From Nipponacmea schrenckii (Eukaryota; Mollusca; Gastropoda; Lottiidae): a DNA stretch of 64,000 nt. The DNA is taken from assembly GCA_030562195.1 (NCBI GenBank), contig JAUJPP010000003.1, positions 372,001 to 436,000 of the forward strand, given 5' to 3'. Each line of letters starts with the position of its first letter. Within the stretch, counting starts at the first letter, position 1. The notes below the pieces were generated by a model, which saw nothing but the letters and a program-made list of their open reading frames with translations, did no database searches and was not told the DNA's origin. Both the position numbers and the translations under genes were made by a program. This document shows positions 4,992 through 51,616 of this stretch, piece by piece.

Positions 4992-5706
4992 TGATATCAA
5001 AATGTCAAATTCAGTTCAATATTTCGTGAGCTTGCTTCAGGAAAATTACCTTTCCTTTCATTCTGTGAATTTAATGATACAGAAAATTCATGAATTACAA
5101 TTTTAGAAAAAGGAGCATTTAATTTAGATGGGTGAGAACAACATTATATCCATGTTAACAAAATTTGTGATTTTACACGCTTTGAAAAAAATCTACCGAT
5201 TATTCATCCAATCTCCCGAATTTTTAAGACGTTTTTCTCCCGTTAACAGTAATTCACGTTAATTAATGATTAGCGTGGTCGTTTATTAGGCGATAATTGG
5301 CCAATTTACTTCAATTTCGGTGGTCGCTGATGGCGTTGAAGGAGTGGTCGTTCAATAAGCATAAATTTTATTGAAATATCATCGGGGGGAATTTAAGGCG
5401 GTCACTTACTACTTTTACTGTATATACCAATTTGTAACCAGAAATGTTTTGAATTTTTACTTTAAAAAAAAAGGAATAGGTGGTCAATTAATAAAATATT
5501 TGATGTTTAAAATAGATGAGCCTGAAACCTATATTTCCGGTTTAACTGACGTCCAAAAACAGTTAGTTTCACAATTTAAAATCCGCACATCTATTTTGAC
5601 TTTTTGGCCTGAACAAAACTTATTGTACTGGAGTAGATCTGTTGCGTGAAATTTTCCCGAGTCAAGGGAAACATTATTCATTGTCTTTTATTTTTTTTAT
5701 CCGTTT
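4992..5706. other. unassigned sequence between two HINEs
   Basis: No repeat or gene was recognised here. A reading frame of 92 codons (5371-5649, +) exists but has no ATG at the assigned start, no recognisable domain and low-complexity AT-rich flanks, so I do not call it a gene. It probably belongs to the annexin locus as intron or upstream sequence. Confidence 0.4.
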
Positions 5707-5779
5707 TTATACGCCCACATGAAAATGTGTAAACAGTCAATAAATACAATTTGCTATAGAAAAACTAAATAGTCCTAAA

Positions 5780-5823
5780 GTCCAACATGTTTCAAGAGCA
5801 CAAAGGCCCCCTTCCTCAGGGAC
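5780..5823 (-). ncRNA. hammerhead ribozyme motif 1 (type I)
   Basis: Read on the minus strand: stem I GUCC, core CUGAGGA, stem II AGGGG paired with CUCUU, core GAAAC, AUGUU, then stem I' GGAC. All conserved core positions (CUGANGA, GAAA, UH at the cut) are present. Stem III is the short palindrome ACAUGU, as in minimal hammerheads that work as dimers. The cut would fall between the UU (5784-5785) and GGAC (5780-5783). Confidence 0.7.
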
Positions 5824-6131
5824 AGACACACATGAAATGTCAGTTGAAAATCTGTGATGTCACTTTCCTTGGTAATTGCTAAGTAACTTTCTCCAACATT
5901 CTTCTCATGACAGGAATCCAATATGGCTTCATTTAATGATGATTAATTATGATGCAGTGGGTCCAAAGTTTAGATGAATGTTCAATAAAATAGAAGACTC
6001 AAAAACCATTTCAAAAAGTTTTTACTGGTCCATTTTTTAGTTGATCCGTAGGTGGATACACTATAGCACACAACACATGGGTAAACAGTCAATAAATACA
6101 ATTTGCTATAGAAAAACTAAATAGTCCTAAA

Positions 6132-6175
6132 GTCCAACATGTTTCAAGAGCACAAAGGCCCCCTTCCTCAGGGAC
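6132..6175 (-). ncRNA. hammerhead ribozyme motif 2 (type I)
   Basis: Second copy of the motif at 5780-5823, exactly 352 bp away and identical in core and stems. The two sites in one transcript would release a unit-length RNA. Confidence 0.7.
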
Positions 6176-6452
6176 AGACACACATGAAATGTCAATTGAA
6201 AATCTGTGATGTCACTTTCCTTGGTAGTTGCTAAGTAACTTTCTCCAACATTCTTCTCATGACAATTATATCAATGAATAATGACCGATTAAAATGTGAC
6301 GGCATAACGGATTATCATGTCAACTGATTGTTAAAAGTAAATAGTTTGAAATCTCTTTGAACTGGAAGCTTTTTCCGGGAGCCGATTAATAATTGTCAAT
6401 AAATTCATTTTTAATTAACCTCCTCTTACCATTAATCTCTTAATTAACTAAA

Positions 6453-10528: not shown

Positions 10529-10711
10529 CCCTCTTTTAACACCTGTCAATCATGGTAAACAAAAAAATCTCTTATTTTAGCAGAAAATAAGAACTTTTAT
10601 ACGCCCACATGAATATGTGGTAATTCCAAAGAGAAAAAGCAGGCAGCAATTCCCTTGATTTAGTAAAATTAAGTCAAAAGTGTATTGTGGGTTCATTAGA
10701 TGCTGCAATTT

Positions 10712-13318: not shown

Positions 13319-13508
13319 AGATTGTATCAAGCTGGTGAGAAGAGGTGGGGCACTGATGAAAATACCTTTAATATGGTCTTAGCTTCTCAGAGTTATCCTC
13401 AACTACGTGCAATTTTTGATGCATATAGCAAGATATCTAAAAAAGATATTGAAAAGGCTATAAGCAGCGAAATGTCTGGTGATGTTGCTAAAGGAATGAG
13501 GACTATAG
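13319..13508 (+). CDS. annexin, internal exon (repeat 3)
   Basis: The 190-bp exon gives 63 codons plus one base. It reads RLYQAGEKRWGTDENTF, then AIFDAYSKISKKDIEKAI, then SSEMSGDVAKGMRTI: annexin repeat 3. It has a full type II calcium site: the loop KRWGTD and an acidic residue (E of SSEMSG) with 38 residues between it and the T, as the family pattern GxGT-(38)-D/E requires. The tryptophan in the loop is like annexin A5. The acceptor is TTGTAG at 13313-13318 and the donor is GTAATC at 13509. It ends in phase 1, matching the phase of the exon at 37922. Confidence 0.92.
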
Positions 13509-43805: not shown

Positions 43806-45269
43806 TTAGGCCTCCAAGGGGCAAAGTCTATGGATTGGTCTTTTGAACACAGCATTTCCGACTTTGACTTCGACTACGCGAACCAGTCCGTCACTACTAG
43901 GCAAAGTGGATACAATTCGTCCTAGCGGCCACTTCCCTTGAGGCGTTTGAGGGTCTATAACGATGACCATATCACCAATCTTCAAGTTCTTTGAGGGAAA
44001 GTTCCACTTTGAACGAGTGTTCAGACATGGCAAGAATTCGCGTAGCCATCTCCGCCAAAACTGTCCTAATAAGTCTTGTACATTCCGCCATCTCCTACGG
44101 GGATTATAACGAATGTCACTCAAATCCGGCGCTAGTGACCCGCCTAATTGCCCGCACAGGAAATGACTAGGTGTCAATACAGGATCATCAGAGGCACTGT
44201 CACTGATATAACACAAAGGTCGGTTGTTAAGTAAACCTTCAGCACCGGTTATCGCGGTCAGCAATTCCTCATCAGTAATGTCTGCATGTCCTAATATTGC
44301 ACGAATTGCTCTCTTCGCCGATTTGATCAATGCTTCAAAAACGACTCCGAAGTGAGGTGCTAGGGGAGGGTTAAAGGTCCACTTAATCCCTCTATTAGAC
44401 ATCCGATTTCCGATCTTAATTTGGTCTAGTCCAGCAATTAGTTCTTTCAATTCACGATCAGCGCTAATAAAGTTTGAACTGTTATCCGATACAATTTCGA
44501 TAGGTTTCGATCTTCGGCTCACAAATCTGTCTAAAGCTGAGAGAAAGCTGTCTGTATCAAGGCTCCACGCCATTTCCAAATGAACAGCTCTGGTGCTCAA
44601 ACATGTAAACAAACATAAGTACCGCTTAGTTTGGATTCGTCCACGACCCTGTTTCGTGAGATAAGGGCCTCCGAAATCCCGTCCTGTTCTTGCGACGGCA
44701 CGAATTGGTTCCAATCTGTTCTTTGGCAAGGGAGCCATCATTTGACGGGCTGGTTTTCTTTTGCGACGGACACATTTCAAACTTTTCACACATTCACGAG
44801 CGCGCAATATCCAGAACTTAGATCGCAATTGTGATAAAACGAATGAAACACCAAACTCGTGATTTGACTTTTCGTGATAATGTTCCTCAAGTTATTCTGT
44901 TACACGATGCTTCCTTGGTAATATGATTGGGTGTCGCGCACTATAGGATAAGCAATTGGCCTTATCCAGTCTCCCCCCAACACGTAACACTTGATCACAC
45001 TCCATAAAGGGATTCACATTTGATAATTTCGAACTGGTAGACACATATTTATGATTTTTGATATCACTGATTTCTCTGGAAAACTCATCACATTGAGCTC
45101 GTCGGAACCAGAACATTTCGGATCTATCGATTTCATCACTAGTAAGGAATGGCTCACAAAGCTTAACTTTATTACCACAATTATGAATGAAACGTTTCAC
45201 ACATGCAGTAACCCTCACTAATTTTAGCCACTTCGAAAACCTGTTAGGATCTAACCTACCAAAGTCCAC
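43806..45269 (-). pseudogene. BEL/Pao integrase (one in-frame stop)
   Basis: Two pieces in the same frame, 45269-44892 and 44891-43806, are separated by a TAA codon just after HRVTE. The first contains the pre-integrase region (QVLRVGGRLDKAN, HPIILPRKHRV). The second has the rest of the zinc-binding H-H-C-C region (HYHEKSNHEF; CVKSLKC) and the DDE core. Core landmarks are D in RDFGGPY, TRAVHLEM, D in IVSDNSSNF and E in FEALIKSAKRA. The C-terminal domain (KIGDMVIVID, GRIV, RPIHRLCPLE) ends at 43806. The catalytic triad is still present; the usual GG-W before the glutamate is changed to G-V-V-F. Confidence 0.88.
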
Positions 45270-45277
45270 ATTGGCCG

Positions 45278-46046
45278 TCAGAAAAGTGGTAACGGGACTG
45301 CTTCGTCTAGAAGGGGCTCGTCAGGAGTGAATGTCTGATCGACTGGCCAATCAATAGGTCCATGTAGTAAAAAGTCAGGTCCGTGCCACCATAGAATGCT
45401 ATCTGATAGTTCAAGTGCGGATAGTCCCTGTGTTGCCAAGTCACTACTATTCCATTTAGTTGGGACGTGACGCCACTGTGACTGATTGGACAGTTCATGA
45501 ATTTCCCCTATTCTGTGGGCTACAAAGGGTTTATAACTCCTAGATTCACTGTGAATCCAAAACAAAACATTCCTACTGTCAGACCAAAAGGTAATGCTTT
45601 TCGGATTAAGAGTTCTGTTTAAAGTCTGGGTTAGTTTGAGTCCTAAAACAGCAGCACAAAGCTCTAATTTGGGGATAGAAATCGTCTTTAATGGGGCAAC
45701 ACGAGTCTTAGAGGCGATCAAATTTACAGAAACTGACTTGTCTAGGTATTCACAACGTAAATAACAGGCGGCTGCGTAGGCCTTCTCCGAGGCATCGACG
45801 AATGTATGTAGAGACTCATGTACTATATCTGACTTATCATCGACTAAGCAACGTCGAACCTGGATGTGTTGTTATTCCGGAAGTTCGCGAAACCATTTTG
45901 TCCATGGTTCTATTAAGTCAGTAAGAAGTTTTTGATCCCAGTCTATTCCGCGAAGCCAAGAAGATTGTATTCCAATCTTTGCCCGTATTGTAAGGGGTGC
46001 GAGAAGGTTCAATGGATCGAATAGGGATGCAGTCTTACTTACTACA
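45278..46046 (-). pseudogene. BEL/Pao RT thumb and RNase H region (one in-frame stop)
   Basis: From the HINE junction at 46046 the frame reads on with the BEL/Pao landmarks LFDPLNLLAP and FVDASEKAYAAACYLR, then SIPKLELCAAVLGLKL, FWSDSRNVLFWI and WRHVPTKWNSSDLATQG. A TAA at 45872-45874 interrupts it. The acidic RNase H residues are retained (D of FVDAS, E of KLELCA, D of WSDS). It ends at 45278, about where a one-base shift separates it from the integrase frame. Confidence 0.82.
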
Positions 46047-48045
46047 AGATAGCTTGCCAGGCAAGGTAATATACGCCCACTGGCAGCATTTATTTCAAAT
46101 AAAAACTTTTCAGTAAGGTTACAATAAGTGGAATGAATTATTCAACCTACCAACCTATTTTATTCTAGGGTCTCTAGTTTCATTAAAAACTGTCAAGAAT
46201 TGTAACTAATAACAACTCATTAAATATTTTTCGGTATTTTTATGATTTGCAATAGGGTTCACCCTTAATAATATTTTGATATTTTTAATTCTTAATAAGG
46301 CTCATCCTTGGTTGATATTAAACAATTTCAGCGAGTTTTGTCAAAAAGGAATGTTTAGAGTGTTCACAAGCCAAAAGTTGAAAGTGTTTTTGAAAACAGG
46401 CGCAATAACTGACACTAAATATTTTTCGATTTATCTGATTTTCAATAGGGTTTATCCTTGTGAGAAAACAAATACTAAAGCCAAGTTTCATCAAAATCCA
46501 TTCAAAATTGTTCTTTCTAGAGTGTTTACAAGCTAAAATTGAACGCGTTTTCAAGAACAAGGGCTATAACTTACACTAAATATATTTCTATTTATTTGAT
46601 TTATAATAGGGTTCATCCTTGGGTAAAAACAAATACTCAAGCCAAAGTTAATCAAAATCCATTAAGAATAGTTCCTTCTAGAGTGTTTACAAGCTAAAAT
46701 TGAATGCGTTTTCAAGAACAAGGGCAGTAACTCATTCTAAAAAAAATTTCAATTTAGCTGATTTTCAATAGGGTTCATCCTTGAGTTATAACACACTCTC
46801 ACACCAAGTTTCATCGAAATCCATCAAGAATTGTGCCATGTAGAGTGTTTACGAGACAAAAATCGAACGCGTTGAAAAGAACAAGGGCAATAATTCATAT
46901 TAGATATATTTTGATATTTTTAATTTTCAATTAGGCTCATCCCTTGCGATATCCAACAATTTCAGTGAGTTTTGTCAACATAGGTCATGAATTGTACCTT
47001 CTAGAGTGTTTATTAGCCAAAAAGTTAAACCCGTTTTCAAACACAAGAGCAATAACTGACACTAAATATATTTCGATTTATTTGATTTTCAATAAGGTTC
47101 ATCCTTGGGTAAAAACAAATACTCAAGCCAAGTTTTATCAAAATCCATAAAGAATTGTTCTTTCTAGAGTGCTTACAAGCTAAAATTGAACGTGTTTTCA
47201 AACACAAGGGCAATAACTGATACTAAATATTTTTCGATTTAAATGAATTTCAATAGGGTTCATCCTTAGGTGATTACAAATACTCATGCCAAGTTATGTC
47301 AAAATTGCTCAAGAATTGTGACTTGTAGAGTGTTTCCAAGGCAAAAATCCAACACATTTTATAGAACAAGGGCAATAATTCCTATTAAATATATTTCGAT
47401 ATGTGCTATTTTCAAAAGGGTTCATTCTTTGGTGATATTAAACAATTTCAGCAAGTTTAGTCAAAATCGGTCAATAAGCTTTGTATAGTGTTTACAAGCT
47501 AAAAATTGAAAGTGTTTTCAAAAACAAGGGCAATAACTGATATTAATTTTTTTTTTGATTTGACTGGTTTTCAATAGGCTTCATCCTTGGGTGATAACAA
47601 ATACTCAGGCCAAGTTTCATTAAAATCCATTAAAAATTGTTCTCTCAAGAGTGTTTACAAGCTAAAATTGAACGCGTTTTCAAGAACAAGGGCAATAACT
47701 CATACTAAATGTTTTTCGATTTCGCTGATTTTCGATAGGGTTTATCCTTGAGTTATAACATACTCTCACACCAAGTTTCATCAAAATCGGTCAAGAATTG
47801 CACGTTGTAGAGTGTTTACAAGCCATTCAAGAACAAGGGCACAAACTCATACTAATTTTTTTCCGATTTCGCTGATTTTTAATAGGGTTCATCCTTGCGT
47901 GATCATAAACACTCATATTAAGTTTCATCTAAATCCGTCAAGAATTACACCGTGTAGAGTGTTTACGAGCAATTGTGGACGGACCGACGGACGGACAGAT
48001 GTGGGTGACGACAATATACGCCCCCTATTTCATGTGGGCGTATAA
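46047..48045 (-). mobile_element. HINE-type element, copy t, inserted in the BEL/Pao pol
   Basis: Complete 2.0-kb element on the minus strand (3' terminus at 46047, 5' terminus at 48045), same subfamily as 3005-4991. It cuts the RT just after a TKR motif. The junctions lie in a short T-run (T-rich on both sides in element orientation) and no longer target duplication is visible, which defines the element ends well. Confidence 0.93.
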
Positions 48046-49369
48046 AAACGTTTTGTTAAAACAGTTCTTGGTGGCGATTCCACTTTAAACATGAAATTGT
48101 CAGTGTTGGCGTCCCATAAAATGCCCAAAGTTTTAACCGACGGTAACCCGCCATTTTGAAATGAGAAACTCGACATGCGATCAGTTTCAGGAATGTCCTC
48201 CAAGACTTTAGGATCATTCGAGATCCATTTTCTTATCTGAAAGCCAGCACTGGTCAACGAATCCGTGATCTCATGGCGCAGTTTAATTGTCGCGTTGACA
48301 GAATTAACACTGTCAAGCAAATCGTCTACGTACATGGAATTCAACACAGAGTTCACACCTAAAGGATACTTCACACTATTACTTGTTGCGTGTTGCCGAA
48401 TGACAGCCTGGCTAAGGAATGGAGACGAAGTTTTTCCAAAAACCAACCTTTGGTATTCGAATTCGCGAATTGGTGATCCCATGTCCATGTCACGCCAAAG
48501 GAATCGATGGAAACGCTTATCCGATTCCAACATTTCCACTTGGAGAAAAAACTCCGTCACATCTGCGGCTATGGCAACAATGCCATGTCTGAAGCGTATT
48601 AGAACATCAAGTAATTCTCGTTGAAGCTTAGGGCCAGAAAATGTGCAATCATTGAGCGATTTGTCTTTGTATCGCGCCGCAGCATCCATTACCAAGCGAA
48701 CTTTGGTCGAGGCCTTGTCAAGTTTCACAACGGGGAAATGCGGCAAATACCAAACGTTACTAGCATAAGTTTCCGGTGGAAAAACCTCTCGGACGTAAGA
48801 TTTATCCAGATGATCATTTATAATGTTACAATACATGTCTTTAACTTCAGGTTGTCTTATCAAGGATTTTTCTAAAGTTAATAAACGTGATTTTGCCATG
48901 TGATAATTGTTACTTAGATTAGGTTCACCCTCTTTCCAAGGAATTCCGATGCTATATCTACCATTTTCGAAGGAAATAGTTGAACGTGTGAAATTATTAA
49001 CTTTTTCATCAAGTGGTCTTAAGATTTCGTTTCCAGGTGCAGTCAATCCTGCCGTTTCTAGTTCCCACATTTGACGAATTAACTGGTTTGTATCATGATG
49101 ATCTTGCACAAAGAACGCCCTGGCGAAATGAGAAGTTCCCACCTTATTGCCCTCGGAAGGTTCAAATGGACCAATGCATGTCCAGCCTAATGGTGTCAGT
49201 CTAGCACATGGCTGGCCTGGCCTACCGTAGATTTCAGTTATTGAACGATGTAATTCAGGACAGTTCAAGCCGATTAATAGTCTAATTTTACGGTTTCTAC
49301 CTAGTGCGGGAAATTCAATACCTGACAAATGTGGCCAGTTTTTAGCATATTTGTTCCAATCAATCATTG
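48046..49369 (-). pseudogene. BEL/Pao reverse transcriptase (interrupted)
   Basis: About 440 residues from WPHLSGIEFP to the HINE junction. RT landmarks are VVKLDKASTKVRLVMDAAA, AIAADVTEFFLQVEM, FLWRDMD, FEYQRLVFGKTSSPFLSQA and the catalytic YVDD in NSMYVDDLLDSV. The palm is complete. The frame continues a few codons into the HINE and stops. Its upstream connection to the protease is broken by the MITE at 49374-49854, and its thumb is on the other side of the HINE. Confidence 0.92.
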
Positions 49370-49373
49370 TTAA

Positions 49374-49854
49374 AGGGGCACAATCTTGATTTTTAGGGGT
49401 CGTTTTGGGCCTTTGTTACATTTAAACAGTCCTCAGAAATACTCAAGCTCTAAGAAAATCGCAAAATACCTTGAAATATACCTCAAACAAAAAAATTCAT
49501 TGTTTTTTTCGTGCTGTTCGTGGCTGGTCTCCAGTCAGTCTGAAAATTGTGTGTCCTGTTGACAAAGTCTACAATTGTTATTACTTTCTTTTTGTTTTGT
49601 CAGTGTGGGCCTGCGCAGTAGTCTATCTATAAATCTTTGATTATCAAGACGAACCATTTTCCAATATGGCGGGACGTTCATAATATCTTAAGACATTATG
49701 ATTTTCAAACACTGATAATTATGGATACACATGGATTTGAAGGCTCAAATTTCAAAGGTAAGCTCTGTAGACTATTTCTGATTAGCTAAGCAAAAGATTT
49801 CATGTGTTTGAGGCTGTCGGATGATTGTCCGAAACAAATCAAGACTGTACCCCT
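49374..49854. mobile_element. TTAA-flanked MITE (piggyBac-like), 481 bp, in BEL/Pao pol
   Basis: Terminal inverted repeats begin AGGGGCACAATCTTGATTT at 49374 and, on the other strand from 49854, AGGGGTACAGTCTTGATTT. TTAA flanks both sides (49370-49373 and 49855-49858). The protease and RT frames are in register across it when the element plus one TTAA is ignored, so the insertion is precise. A second, older copy lies inverted at 62366-62856. No transposase. Confidence 0.88.
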
Positions 49855-50119
49855 TTAAGTCACCAGTCACATTGCGAACAGTGAATGCACTGATTTGAAA
49901 TTTGTTATTATTGCTCACACTACGAATATTCAAAGTTACTCGCTGGGTGTTAATTGAGGTTGTTTCTCCACCTAATACCCCAACATCCAATGAACTTAAT
50001 GGTCCATCTAAACCCAATTCGTCAGCTAGGCCTTTGTCCACATAGGTATCCGTCAAACATTCGTCAAGTAGGGCATGCTCAATTTTACTGTTATGCATAA
50101 CCACTGGCACAGTACGCAT
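49855..50119 (-). pseudogene. BEL/Pao aspartic protease region
   Basis: Reads MRTVPVVMHNSKIEHALLDE, then CLTDTYVDKGLADELGL and QISAFTVRNVTGDL, the retropepsin-like part of BEL/Pao pol. The active-site aspartate is in ALLDE, but the expected following G-S is replaced by C-L, so activity is doubtful. The frame runs on into the MITE to 49772. It is shifted relative to the zinc-knuckle frame upstream. Confidence 0.7.
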
Positions 50120-50138
50120 AGCAACAAAGTCACCATTT

Positions 50139-50627
50139 TTACAAGCATGTGTGCTTGCTCTCGGGTTCTATTAAGTCTATTTGAATCACCAGGGCTTTCA
50201 TTGGCAGCGAATTCCCCCCGTGCAACAAGGCATGATGGGTTTTCGAACATTTGTCAACACCACATTGTTGGGTTTCCATACATTTATAACCTAAATGTGG
50301 ACCTTTAAGACAGCGGAAACATAGTCTTTGACTCTTTGCGTATTCCCACCTTTGACTGATAGGGAGAGAACAAAACAACCGGCATTGTGTTAGTACATGG
50401 ACTTGGTGGCACATAGGACATTCGTCGGGTTTAGCGTCAAGACTTGTAGCAAATGTGCGTTGAGAACTGGAATATGGTTTGGGTTTAAAGTTATGGTTGG
50501 ACTTATCGATCTGGGGCTTAAAGTTATGGTTCGATTTATCGCACTGGGCATTCAAACCCTCTACTTCCTCCCTGGCTTCAATGCGGAAGCGTAGCTCTTG
50601 AGAAAGCCACTGGTAAAGATATGTCAA
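50139..50627 (-). pseudogene. BEL/Pao gag, C-terminal zinc-knuckle part
   Basis: In the same frame as the gag part upstream, separated by one TGA. It contains LRFRIEAREEVEGL, a short internal duplication (DKSNHNFKP twice) and nucleic-acid-binding fingers: CPMCHQVHVLTQC, a CCHC knuckle CFRCLKGPHLGYKC and CGVDKCSKTHHALLH. This array is typical for BEL/Pao gag ends and would bind the element RNA. Confidence 0.85.
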
Positions 50628-50654
50628 GTTTTCAGTTTCCCCTACCGTAGAGGC

Positions 50655-51470
50655 TCAACATTTAAAGTTGGCAACGCTTGCTGGTGTTAGTCTTGCCTTG
50701 GTGACAGAATAGAACATAGAGTTTCCATCAAACTCTTCGACCCTTCCAGTATCCTTGAGAGCTATTATTGCTAATTCTAATTTATCACAAAATTTTTCAA
50801 TACTTTTAAATTCTTGGAAATTGACCGGTTTCGAATTTCGGATCGAGTCCAATCTATTTTTGGCAGATTCGTAACCGATTGAGGATGCTGGGAAACCTTC
50901 TATGGACTTAAGGGCGTCACCTTCAAGATATTGTCTTAATTGGAGCATCTTGGGTATTGTCACACGTTTTAACTGATGGAACAAGTCCCGATCTACCTGC
51001 AAGTCACTATTTCTATCCCTGGGAGGGGGTTCACCATTGCTACTATTTGGACTAGGCACATTGTCTATAAGATTGTCCTGCCTAACTTGCTTCAAAAAGG
51101 TGGTGGCCTTGTTAAGGGTTTCAGAGATGGATGGGTCTAACTGAACAAGCTCAAGTTCTGCTTCATATAGATCAGAATCAATGTCACACAAGGTCATAAG
51201 AATATCTATTGCATCCTCCTGGCAACCAAGAACTTGCCGAACATGTGATCTTACCCTGTCTGGTTCGACACGTTCCTCACATAATGTTGCAATCAAAGCT
51301 AATCTTGCCTTAGTTAGTTGGGTTTTAACCACTCTTTTTCGGCGCCGTAATACCTTCAATCTGTCCGCACCCTCCTGTGCAGTTTCTGTCTCCATGGAGC
51401 CATCATCGGCGTTGTTGCCGAAATCTGCTGGGCGATTCGATGCACTGCCAGACTCTTCTACGTCAGACAT
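50655..51470 (-). pseudogene. BEL/Pao gag, N-terminal part
   Basis: 271 residues. It starts MSDVEESGSASNRPADFGNN, has a basic helix (VLRRRKRVVKTQLTKARL) and then LRQYLEGDALKSIEGFP and YESAKNRLDSI, the conserved BEL/Pao gag region. Between KRVTIPKM and LQLRQYLEG the usual segment with F-x-G and W is missing, which suggests an internal deletion of several dozen residues. It ends at a TGA read in frame with the zinc-knuckle part. The ATG at 51470 follows the PBS by about 145 bp. Confidence 0.8.
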
Positions 51471-51616
51471 TTGGGTGCTTTAGTCTACAGATTTGAGTGT
51501 CCTATCAATCGGCCTGCCGAAAAGTTGCTGCTCATCTACGTGGCCATATTGTGAGGCAAAACCGGCATGGTTTTAAAATCAAAATACTCACAATAAACCA
51601 GACGATCATGAACCAA

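Follow-up and report, generated by a model that had tools for sequence, protein, structure and literature searches.

The closest described system for the element considered here is the animal retrozyme without long terminal repeats (non-LTR retrozyme). In the available sections of PMC7229834, the return of such retrozymes to DNA is left open, with both the helper and the priming step only proposed, and Penelope-like elements (PLEs) are called 'a strong candidate' for their mobilisation (Discussion); statements on the other papers cited below likewise refer to their available sections. The present element was found on the minus strand of a 64,000-nt stretch from the gastropod Nipponacmea schrenckii (contig JAUJPP010000003.1, positions 372,001 to 436,000), referred to as the window. 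It consists of tandem 352-nt units with a hammerhead motif. Its copies end recurrently at two positions of the RNA, at a palindromic hairpin of HINE/Helentron-like elements, and they were probably inserted there by target-primed reverse transcription. The initial annotation of the window had recognised a retrozyme-like layout, which was confirmed in the form of a dispersed, tandem 352-nt unit; the recurrent hairpin target was absent from it.

Several features are shared with the published animal retrozymes (PMC7229834). The unit of 352 nt compares with about 350-390 nt in mussel and 330 or 350 nt in axolotl. The copies are dispersed tandem units within the range of about 150-450 bp, with a type I hammerhead core, a target-site duplication (TSD) longer than 4 bp (14 bp here) and PLEs in the same genome. 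The unit is non-coding and low in G+C (35%), with a longest stop-to-stop frame of 55 amino acids, and it carries no LTR signature, primer-binding sites and polypurine tracts not having been scanned. In contrast, the available part of that account has no description of landing in HINE hairpins, of 3' ends recurring at two sites or of head-to-head copies, and it reports thousands of copies in other species, compared with at least 57 matches here (40 of 74 candidates scored). A plant LTR retrozyme (type III hammerhead, 4-bp TSD) was ruled out by the type I topology and the 14-bp duplication, although primer-binding sites and polypurine tracts were not searched. This is thus a new retrozyme family, ordinary in kind, whose predicted ribozyme forms stem III only as a dimer. 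The pattern of target site and priming was not found described among the literature matches listed, and none of these matches gave an account of retrozyme or PLE insertion into hairpins.

Recurrent 3' ends and the hairpin target

Copies were compared in 33 loci of 7-10 kb around the listed matches, with duplicates on the window's contig excluded and the window copy included as L041. The loci hold 36 clusters, or 33 distinct clusters without L039, L040 and the second L036 copy. Among the 47 outer RNA-sense 3' ends of these 33 clusters, 21 fell at monomer positions 54-61 and 15 at positions 154-162 (about 58 and 159, numbered from the predicted hammerhead cut). Altogether, 36 of 47 ends were located in two intervals covering 17 of the 352 positions, where 2.3 would be expected. 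Unlike the 3' ends, the 5' ends of the copies varied.

An arm of a palindrome (pattern GTGGnCGTA, mismatches allowed) was present within 45 nt in 32 of the 36 two-site ends, compared with 3,944 of 49,290 random positions (8.0%) in the same loci. At least one two-site 3' end in such an arm was observed in 28 of the 33 clusters. The two-site ends without an arm were the left ends of L024 and L034 and the right ends of L028 and L037, the last of which looks like a decayed hairpin.

The target palindrome, TTTTTATACGCCCACATnnnnATGTGGnCGTATATTGTCGTC, is followed by a GTCC-type microsatellite and tandem repeats of about 161 bp, with CCAGTGGGCGTATATTACCTTGCCTGGCAAGCTATCTT at the other end. Oyster HINEs are built from a 5' subterminal inverted repeat (subTIR), a complementary inverted repeat, a microsatellite, tandem repeats, a 3' subTIR and a palindrome (PMC7492417). 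Since the surroundings of the palindrome correspond to this anatomy, the target is identified as the 5' hairpin of HINE/Helentron-like elements. The host type is that of the Cg_HINE/Helentron-associated elements, with subTIR and complementary inverted repeat, GTCC-type microsatellite, tandem array and right-end palindrome (PMC7492417); the HINE is the landing target, not the retrozyme, and HINEs are reported there without TSD.

In the window and loci together, 48 of 88 arm sites were intact hairpins. Of the 40 arm sites without a partner, 18 lay no more than 90 nt from a retrozyme; among the 22 remaining, 15 were the right end of a HINE. Junctions used both host orientations (18 inner, 12 outer and 2 unclear, with the L021 end at 54 re-read as outer by eye). 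The perfect palindrome CATTATAATG was found in 10 of 28 occupied hairpins compared with 1 of 32 intact ones (Fisher p=0.0017), an enrichment that simultaneous activity of a HINE subfamily could also produce. An 11-nt stretch common to the monomer and the hairpin, CATTTCATGTG, was rejected as not significant, as 14 of 300 shuffles reached 11 nt or more.

HINE/Helentron-like elements with arrays of about 161 bp are dense in the window, for example at 1691, 3006, 8104, 14200, 18791, 28816, 30376 and 57198. Two HINE hairpins, at window position 10598 and at position 1637 of L024, are broken right after ATGTG(G) and continue into sequence other than the retrozyme; it is possible that other elements inserted at the same site.

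Among 13 loci whose junctions were read, the 14-nt hairpin tip CACATnnnnATGTG was present on both sides at four (L016, L030, L032 and L038), with one mismatch each at L030 and L038. At L032, an asymmetric TTTC loop has the same orientation on both sides, which indicates a direct duplication rather than the halves of a single hairpin. At the junctions of 11 loci, monomer position 56 is A (CACAT), whereas most internal units have CCCAT (one internal exception, in L038). Similarly, position 154 is C (GCACATT) at the junctions of four loci, where the unit has GAACATT. Where RNA and target have different bases, the junctions carry that of the target, which would be the expected footprint of a primer nicked after ATGTG; for the other ends near 58, reading ACCCA-CAT, a nick 2 nt later would fit.

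Head-to-head arrangements, in which an RNA 3' end faces outward on each side, were observed in 14 of the 33 clusters (in L021, the second piece is a 19-nt match). In six of them (L016, L022, L024, L032, L034 and L038) both ends lie at the two sites, and in all six a 58-site end is paired with a 159-site end (p about 0.013 under independent choice). Both ends lie in arms in four of the six, L024 and L034 having no arm on one side.

The window copy and its hammerhead motif

The window copy spans the following features.

5730-6264, minus strand: retrozyme copy, running from monomer 224-352 through 1-352 to about 54-59, numbered from the predicted cut
6124-6179, minus strand: hammerhead copy A, predicted cut 6136/6135, from sequence reading and a descriptor match, without an Rfam match
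5772-5827, minus strand: hammerhead copy B, core identical to copy A, predicted cut 5784/5783
5784-6135, minus strand: 352-nt RNA expected from two cuts, from sequence reading and scripted monomer excision
5708-5729, plus strand: outer arm and tip (TATACGCC CACATGAAAATGTG) of a HINE-like 5' hairpin, joined to the RNA-sense 3' end of the copy
5716-5729, plus strand: 14-nt hairpin tip CACAT-GAAA-ATGTG, the same kind of unit that is duplicated around four other copies
5672-5683, plus strand: CATTATTCATTG, left arm of a 12-nt inverted repeat outside the insertion, from sequence reading
6272-6283, plus strand: CAATGAATAATG, right arm of the same inverted repeat, from sequence reading

The direct repeats at 5725-5912 and 6077-6264 are 188 nt each, 98% identical and spaced by 352 nt. 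The initial annotation had assigned a hammerhead core to each repeat, and the two 66-nt cores are identical; its release of 352 nt by two cuts also agrees with the predicted cuts and with scripted excision, at the level of sequence. At 6265, the second half of the hairpin is absent and unrelated DNA begins. The whole insertion is flanked by the 12-nt inverted repeat (5672-5683 and 6272-6283).

In both repeats, the minus strand reads GUCUGUCC-CUGAGGA-AGGGG...CUCUU-GAA-ACAUGU-U^GGAC-UUUA-GGAC. Stem I (GUCUGUCC) consists of two helices of 4 bp with a UUUA bulge between them, as also seen in the computed fold. A second register of stem II (AGGGG/CUCUU) is possible; in six loci, monomer position 328 is changed from G to A, which in our reading would break a pair in the hammerhead register and make one in the slipped register. 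ACAUGU is palindromic and has no self-closing hairpin, and formation of stem III therefore requires two molecules or two units, in line with the dimeric action proposed in the initial annotation. The axolotl/newt satellite hammerhead HHR_Amex1 likewise has a palindromic and very weak helix III for which a dimer is required, with a different sequence (PMC7229834). The present element comes from an invertebrate, and the hammerhead ribozymes of most invertebrate retrozymes are reported to cleave efficiently (PMC7229834).

A descriptor consisting of a 4-bp stem I, CTGANGA, a 4-bp stem II, GAAA, a paired stem III, H17 and stem I' gave 24 matches in 307,031 bases (both strands), every one in the retrozyme family, including four with the 328 change and one with an altered stem III. 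No match was obtained in five first-order Markov sequences of 305,531 bases, and the hammerhead cores are therefore beyond chance. With gaps scored as changes and with units that are not fully independent, the core varied about half as much as the rest of the unit (16/1067 compared with 341/11534 cells, p=0.005). An intact type I core is not present in every unit (38 of 44 BLAST matches near-complete). The motif is presumed to be active as a ribozyme.

Probable insertion mechanism and alternative explanations

The recurrent 3' ends, the hairpin target, the 14-bp duplications at four loci and the inverted copies were observed directly, and the account that probably explains them is insertion of retrozyme copies by target-primed reverse transcription at the palindromic HINE/Helentron-like hairpin. 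Tandem units of a non-autonomous, non-LTR retrozyme would be transcribed, and pairs of hammerheads, acting as dimers, would cleave the RNA into 352-nt pieces. A putative endonuclease would nick both strands of the palindrome, at the end of ATGTG or within the next 2 nt, which would produce self-complementary 3' ends of 14 nt, and one or both DNA ends would prime on the RNA near monomer position 58 or 159. Single priming would give a 5'-truncated copy, and double priming a head-to-head copy whose two RNA 3' ends face outward. Since cutting both strands of a palindrome yields two identical primers, head-to-head copies are explained directly. Bdelloid Penelope (PMC3846280) likewise has direct and head-to-head repeats, 5' truncation and TSDs; inversions are ascribed there to self-priming, whereas the copies described here have a better and simple explanation in priming from both strands of a palindromic target.

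A narrower formulation is offered tentatively, as somewhat short of probable: a site-specific retrozyme with two fixed starts of reverse transcription about 101 nt apart, a Helentron-type palindromic tip cut with a 14-nt stagger, and head-to-head copies as a regular product whose ends pair one 58-site with one 159-site. Because the recurrent RNA 3' ends, the retained target bases and the single recurrent landing site are defined, the questions of helper and priming become testable; the pattern predicts the nick position, the start of priming on the RNA and what a helper endonuclease must recognise. It also makes one transposon, of Helentron-like type, the landing pad of another.

The helper would most likely be a Penelope-like element, which is plausible though unproven and is argued from structure and from the published proposal. 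At L012, an RVT_1 match (E 4.6e-7) and a GIY-YIG match (E 6e-8) lie in neighbouring frames; this PLE sits in a satellite array, not in a hairpin, and is a separate insertion from the retrozyme. PLE-like stretches were also detected by tblastn in several other loci, where many weak reverse transcriptase (RT) rows are satellite matches. The initial annotation had described movement by Penelope machinery as established; the presence of PLE coding sequence (RT and GIY-YIG) in this genome supports the link, but its status in PMC7229834 is that of a candidate.

Several observations weigh against target-primed insertion at the hairpin. The remaining 11 of the 47 outer 3' ends are scattered over the unit (three of them also with a hairpin arm), and five of the 33 clusters (L020, L028, L033, L036 and L037) have no two-site 3' end in an arm. 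A stricter arm pattern was found at 36 of 52 3' ends and also at 5 of 20 5' ends (duplicates included). Clean two-sided 14-mers were absent from nine of the 13 loci read, with partial tips at L010, L012, L025 and L026 and an altered, extra or deleted target at L018, L019, L022, L027 and L028. Positions 58 and 159 are not where the nicked primer end pairs best with the RNA, and thus base pairing alone fails to explain the priming sites. No autonomous or helper element with the hairpin as target was found in the window and sampled loci, the genome not having been searched.

The hammerhead and the presumed RNA circle add further points of this kind. Stem II is weak, with G-U in two of five pairs. 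The covariance-model hit anticipated in the initial annotation did not appear: Rfam gave no match at the gathering score in the 64-kb window, and its results for 801 bases at E<=10 likewise lacked a hammerhead. The fold of the 66-nt core is not stabler than shuffled sequences (z=+1.27) and the z-score of the monomer is also positive; RNA stability was therefore not counted as support. The units of a tandem copy derived from a single circular monomer should be identical at first. The median divergence within copies was 4.1% (8 pairs), the same as between copies (918 pairs), and sister units had 149 concordant variants of 191 compared with 143.2 expected; the circle gained no support from these comparisons, both being of low power in a star-like family. 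In the window copy, the sister units are close, at 1.6% over 129 positions (of 34 others, two were closer and nine equal). Finally, all evidence comes from one genome.

Three other explanations were considered. Extruded cruciforms might break without any dedicated endonuclease, after which microhomology would let the free ends take up retrozyme RNA or cDNA. The preference for the perfect palindrome, the short matches at junctions and the target deletions at L027 and L028 would suit such capture, which nevertheless appears unlikely, as two RNA positions recur though other sites pair with the primer end equally well or better, and the 14-bp duplications at four loci are clean. Alternatively, one or a few retrozymes may have landed in a HINE and been spread by its rolling-circle transposition and later rearrangement. 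Copies do travel in larger units, as indicated by L038, L039 and L040, three places where the same retrozyme-in-HINE structure lies inside a common block of 2.4-3.4 kb, and the host HINE sequences are alike among many loci. Apart from these three and the L036 pair, however, the clusters are set apart by their 5' ends, internal structure, hairpin loops or orientation, and the direct 14-bp duplications at four loci point to fresh insertion, which makes this spread quite improbable.

Slightly less probable still is that the unit is a pseudo-LTR of an autonomous Penelope-like element and not an independent retrozyme. PLEs have direct and head-to-head pseudo-LTRs, TSDs of 8-10 bp and palindromes (PMC3846280), they carry minimal type I hammerhead ribozymes that may self-cleave as dimers (PMC7761336), and PLE-like stretches occur in several sampled loci. 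However, the tandem units abut directly, the L012 PLE lies in a satellite array apart from the retrozyme, and no PLE frame with RT and GIY-YIG was found between units in the 33 loci (frames of at least 130 amino acids; tblastn), the whole genome not having been searched. In this respect the element differs from bdelloid Penelope (PMC3846280), no RT or endonuclease being seen between the units here. A Penelope-like element proper was rejected on the same ground, as no open reading frame with RT and GIY-YIG lies within the element in the sampled loci.

Genomic copies and the host locus

The further tandem copies foreseen in the initial annotation were found in the genome search, whose total of at least 57 listed matches to the unit is a lower bound given the number of candidates scored. 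The contig that holds the window (C3) has 59,252,672 bases, exactly 2 x 29,626,336; its paired matches sit 29,626,336 apart, and 10,000 of 10,000 bases agreed in a 10-kb test. Matches on this contig are therefore counted twice; the doubling is likely an artefact of assembly or file.

Copy size ranged from under one unit up to about 2.5 units (L012); L009-L014, L019 and L041 are among the copies that exceed one unit. L017, L025 and L037 are diverged copies (76-91% identity) with common variants, and L017 and L025 also terminate in the hairpin. The two L036 copies belong to a block of about 3 kb that is duplicated. Five copies (L028, L029, L031, L034 and L041) have a 5' end at about monomer position 222 (220-224) in common, and all of them cross the cut site; this end may mark where an RNA began or where reverse transcription stopped.

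In the window, an annexin repeat exon was found at 13319 on the plus strand, and the RNA strand of the retrozyme is thus opposite to that gene, as the initial annotation had stated. Its placement in an annexin intron was left unconfirmed, as no convincing second annexin exon was detected in the window by a search with the exon repeat (next best E 2.0), which is a weak test because annexin repeats diverge. A BEL/Pao-type retroelement with long open frames occupies 43806-51479 on the minus strand. Its top match in the protein search had 44% identity, the named matches were spread over mixed taxa with no clear taxon, and many of its relatives carry PF05380 and PF00078.
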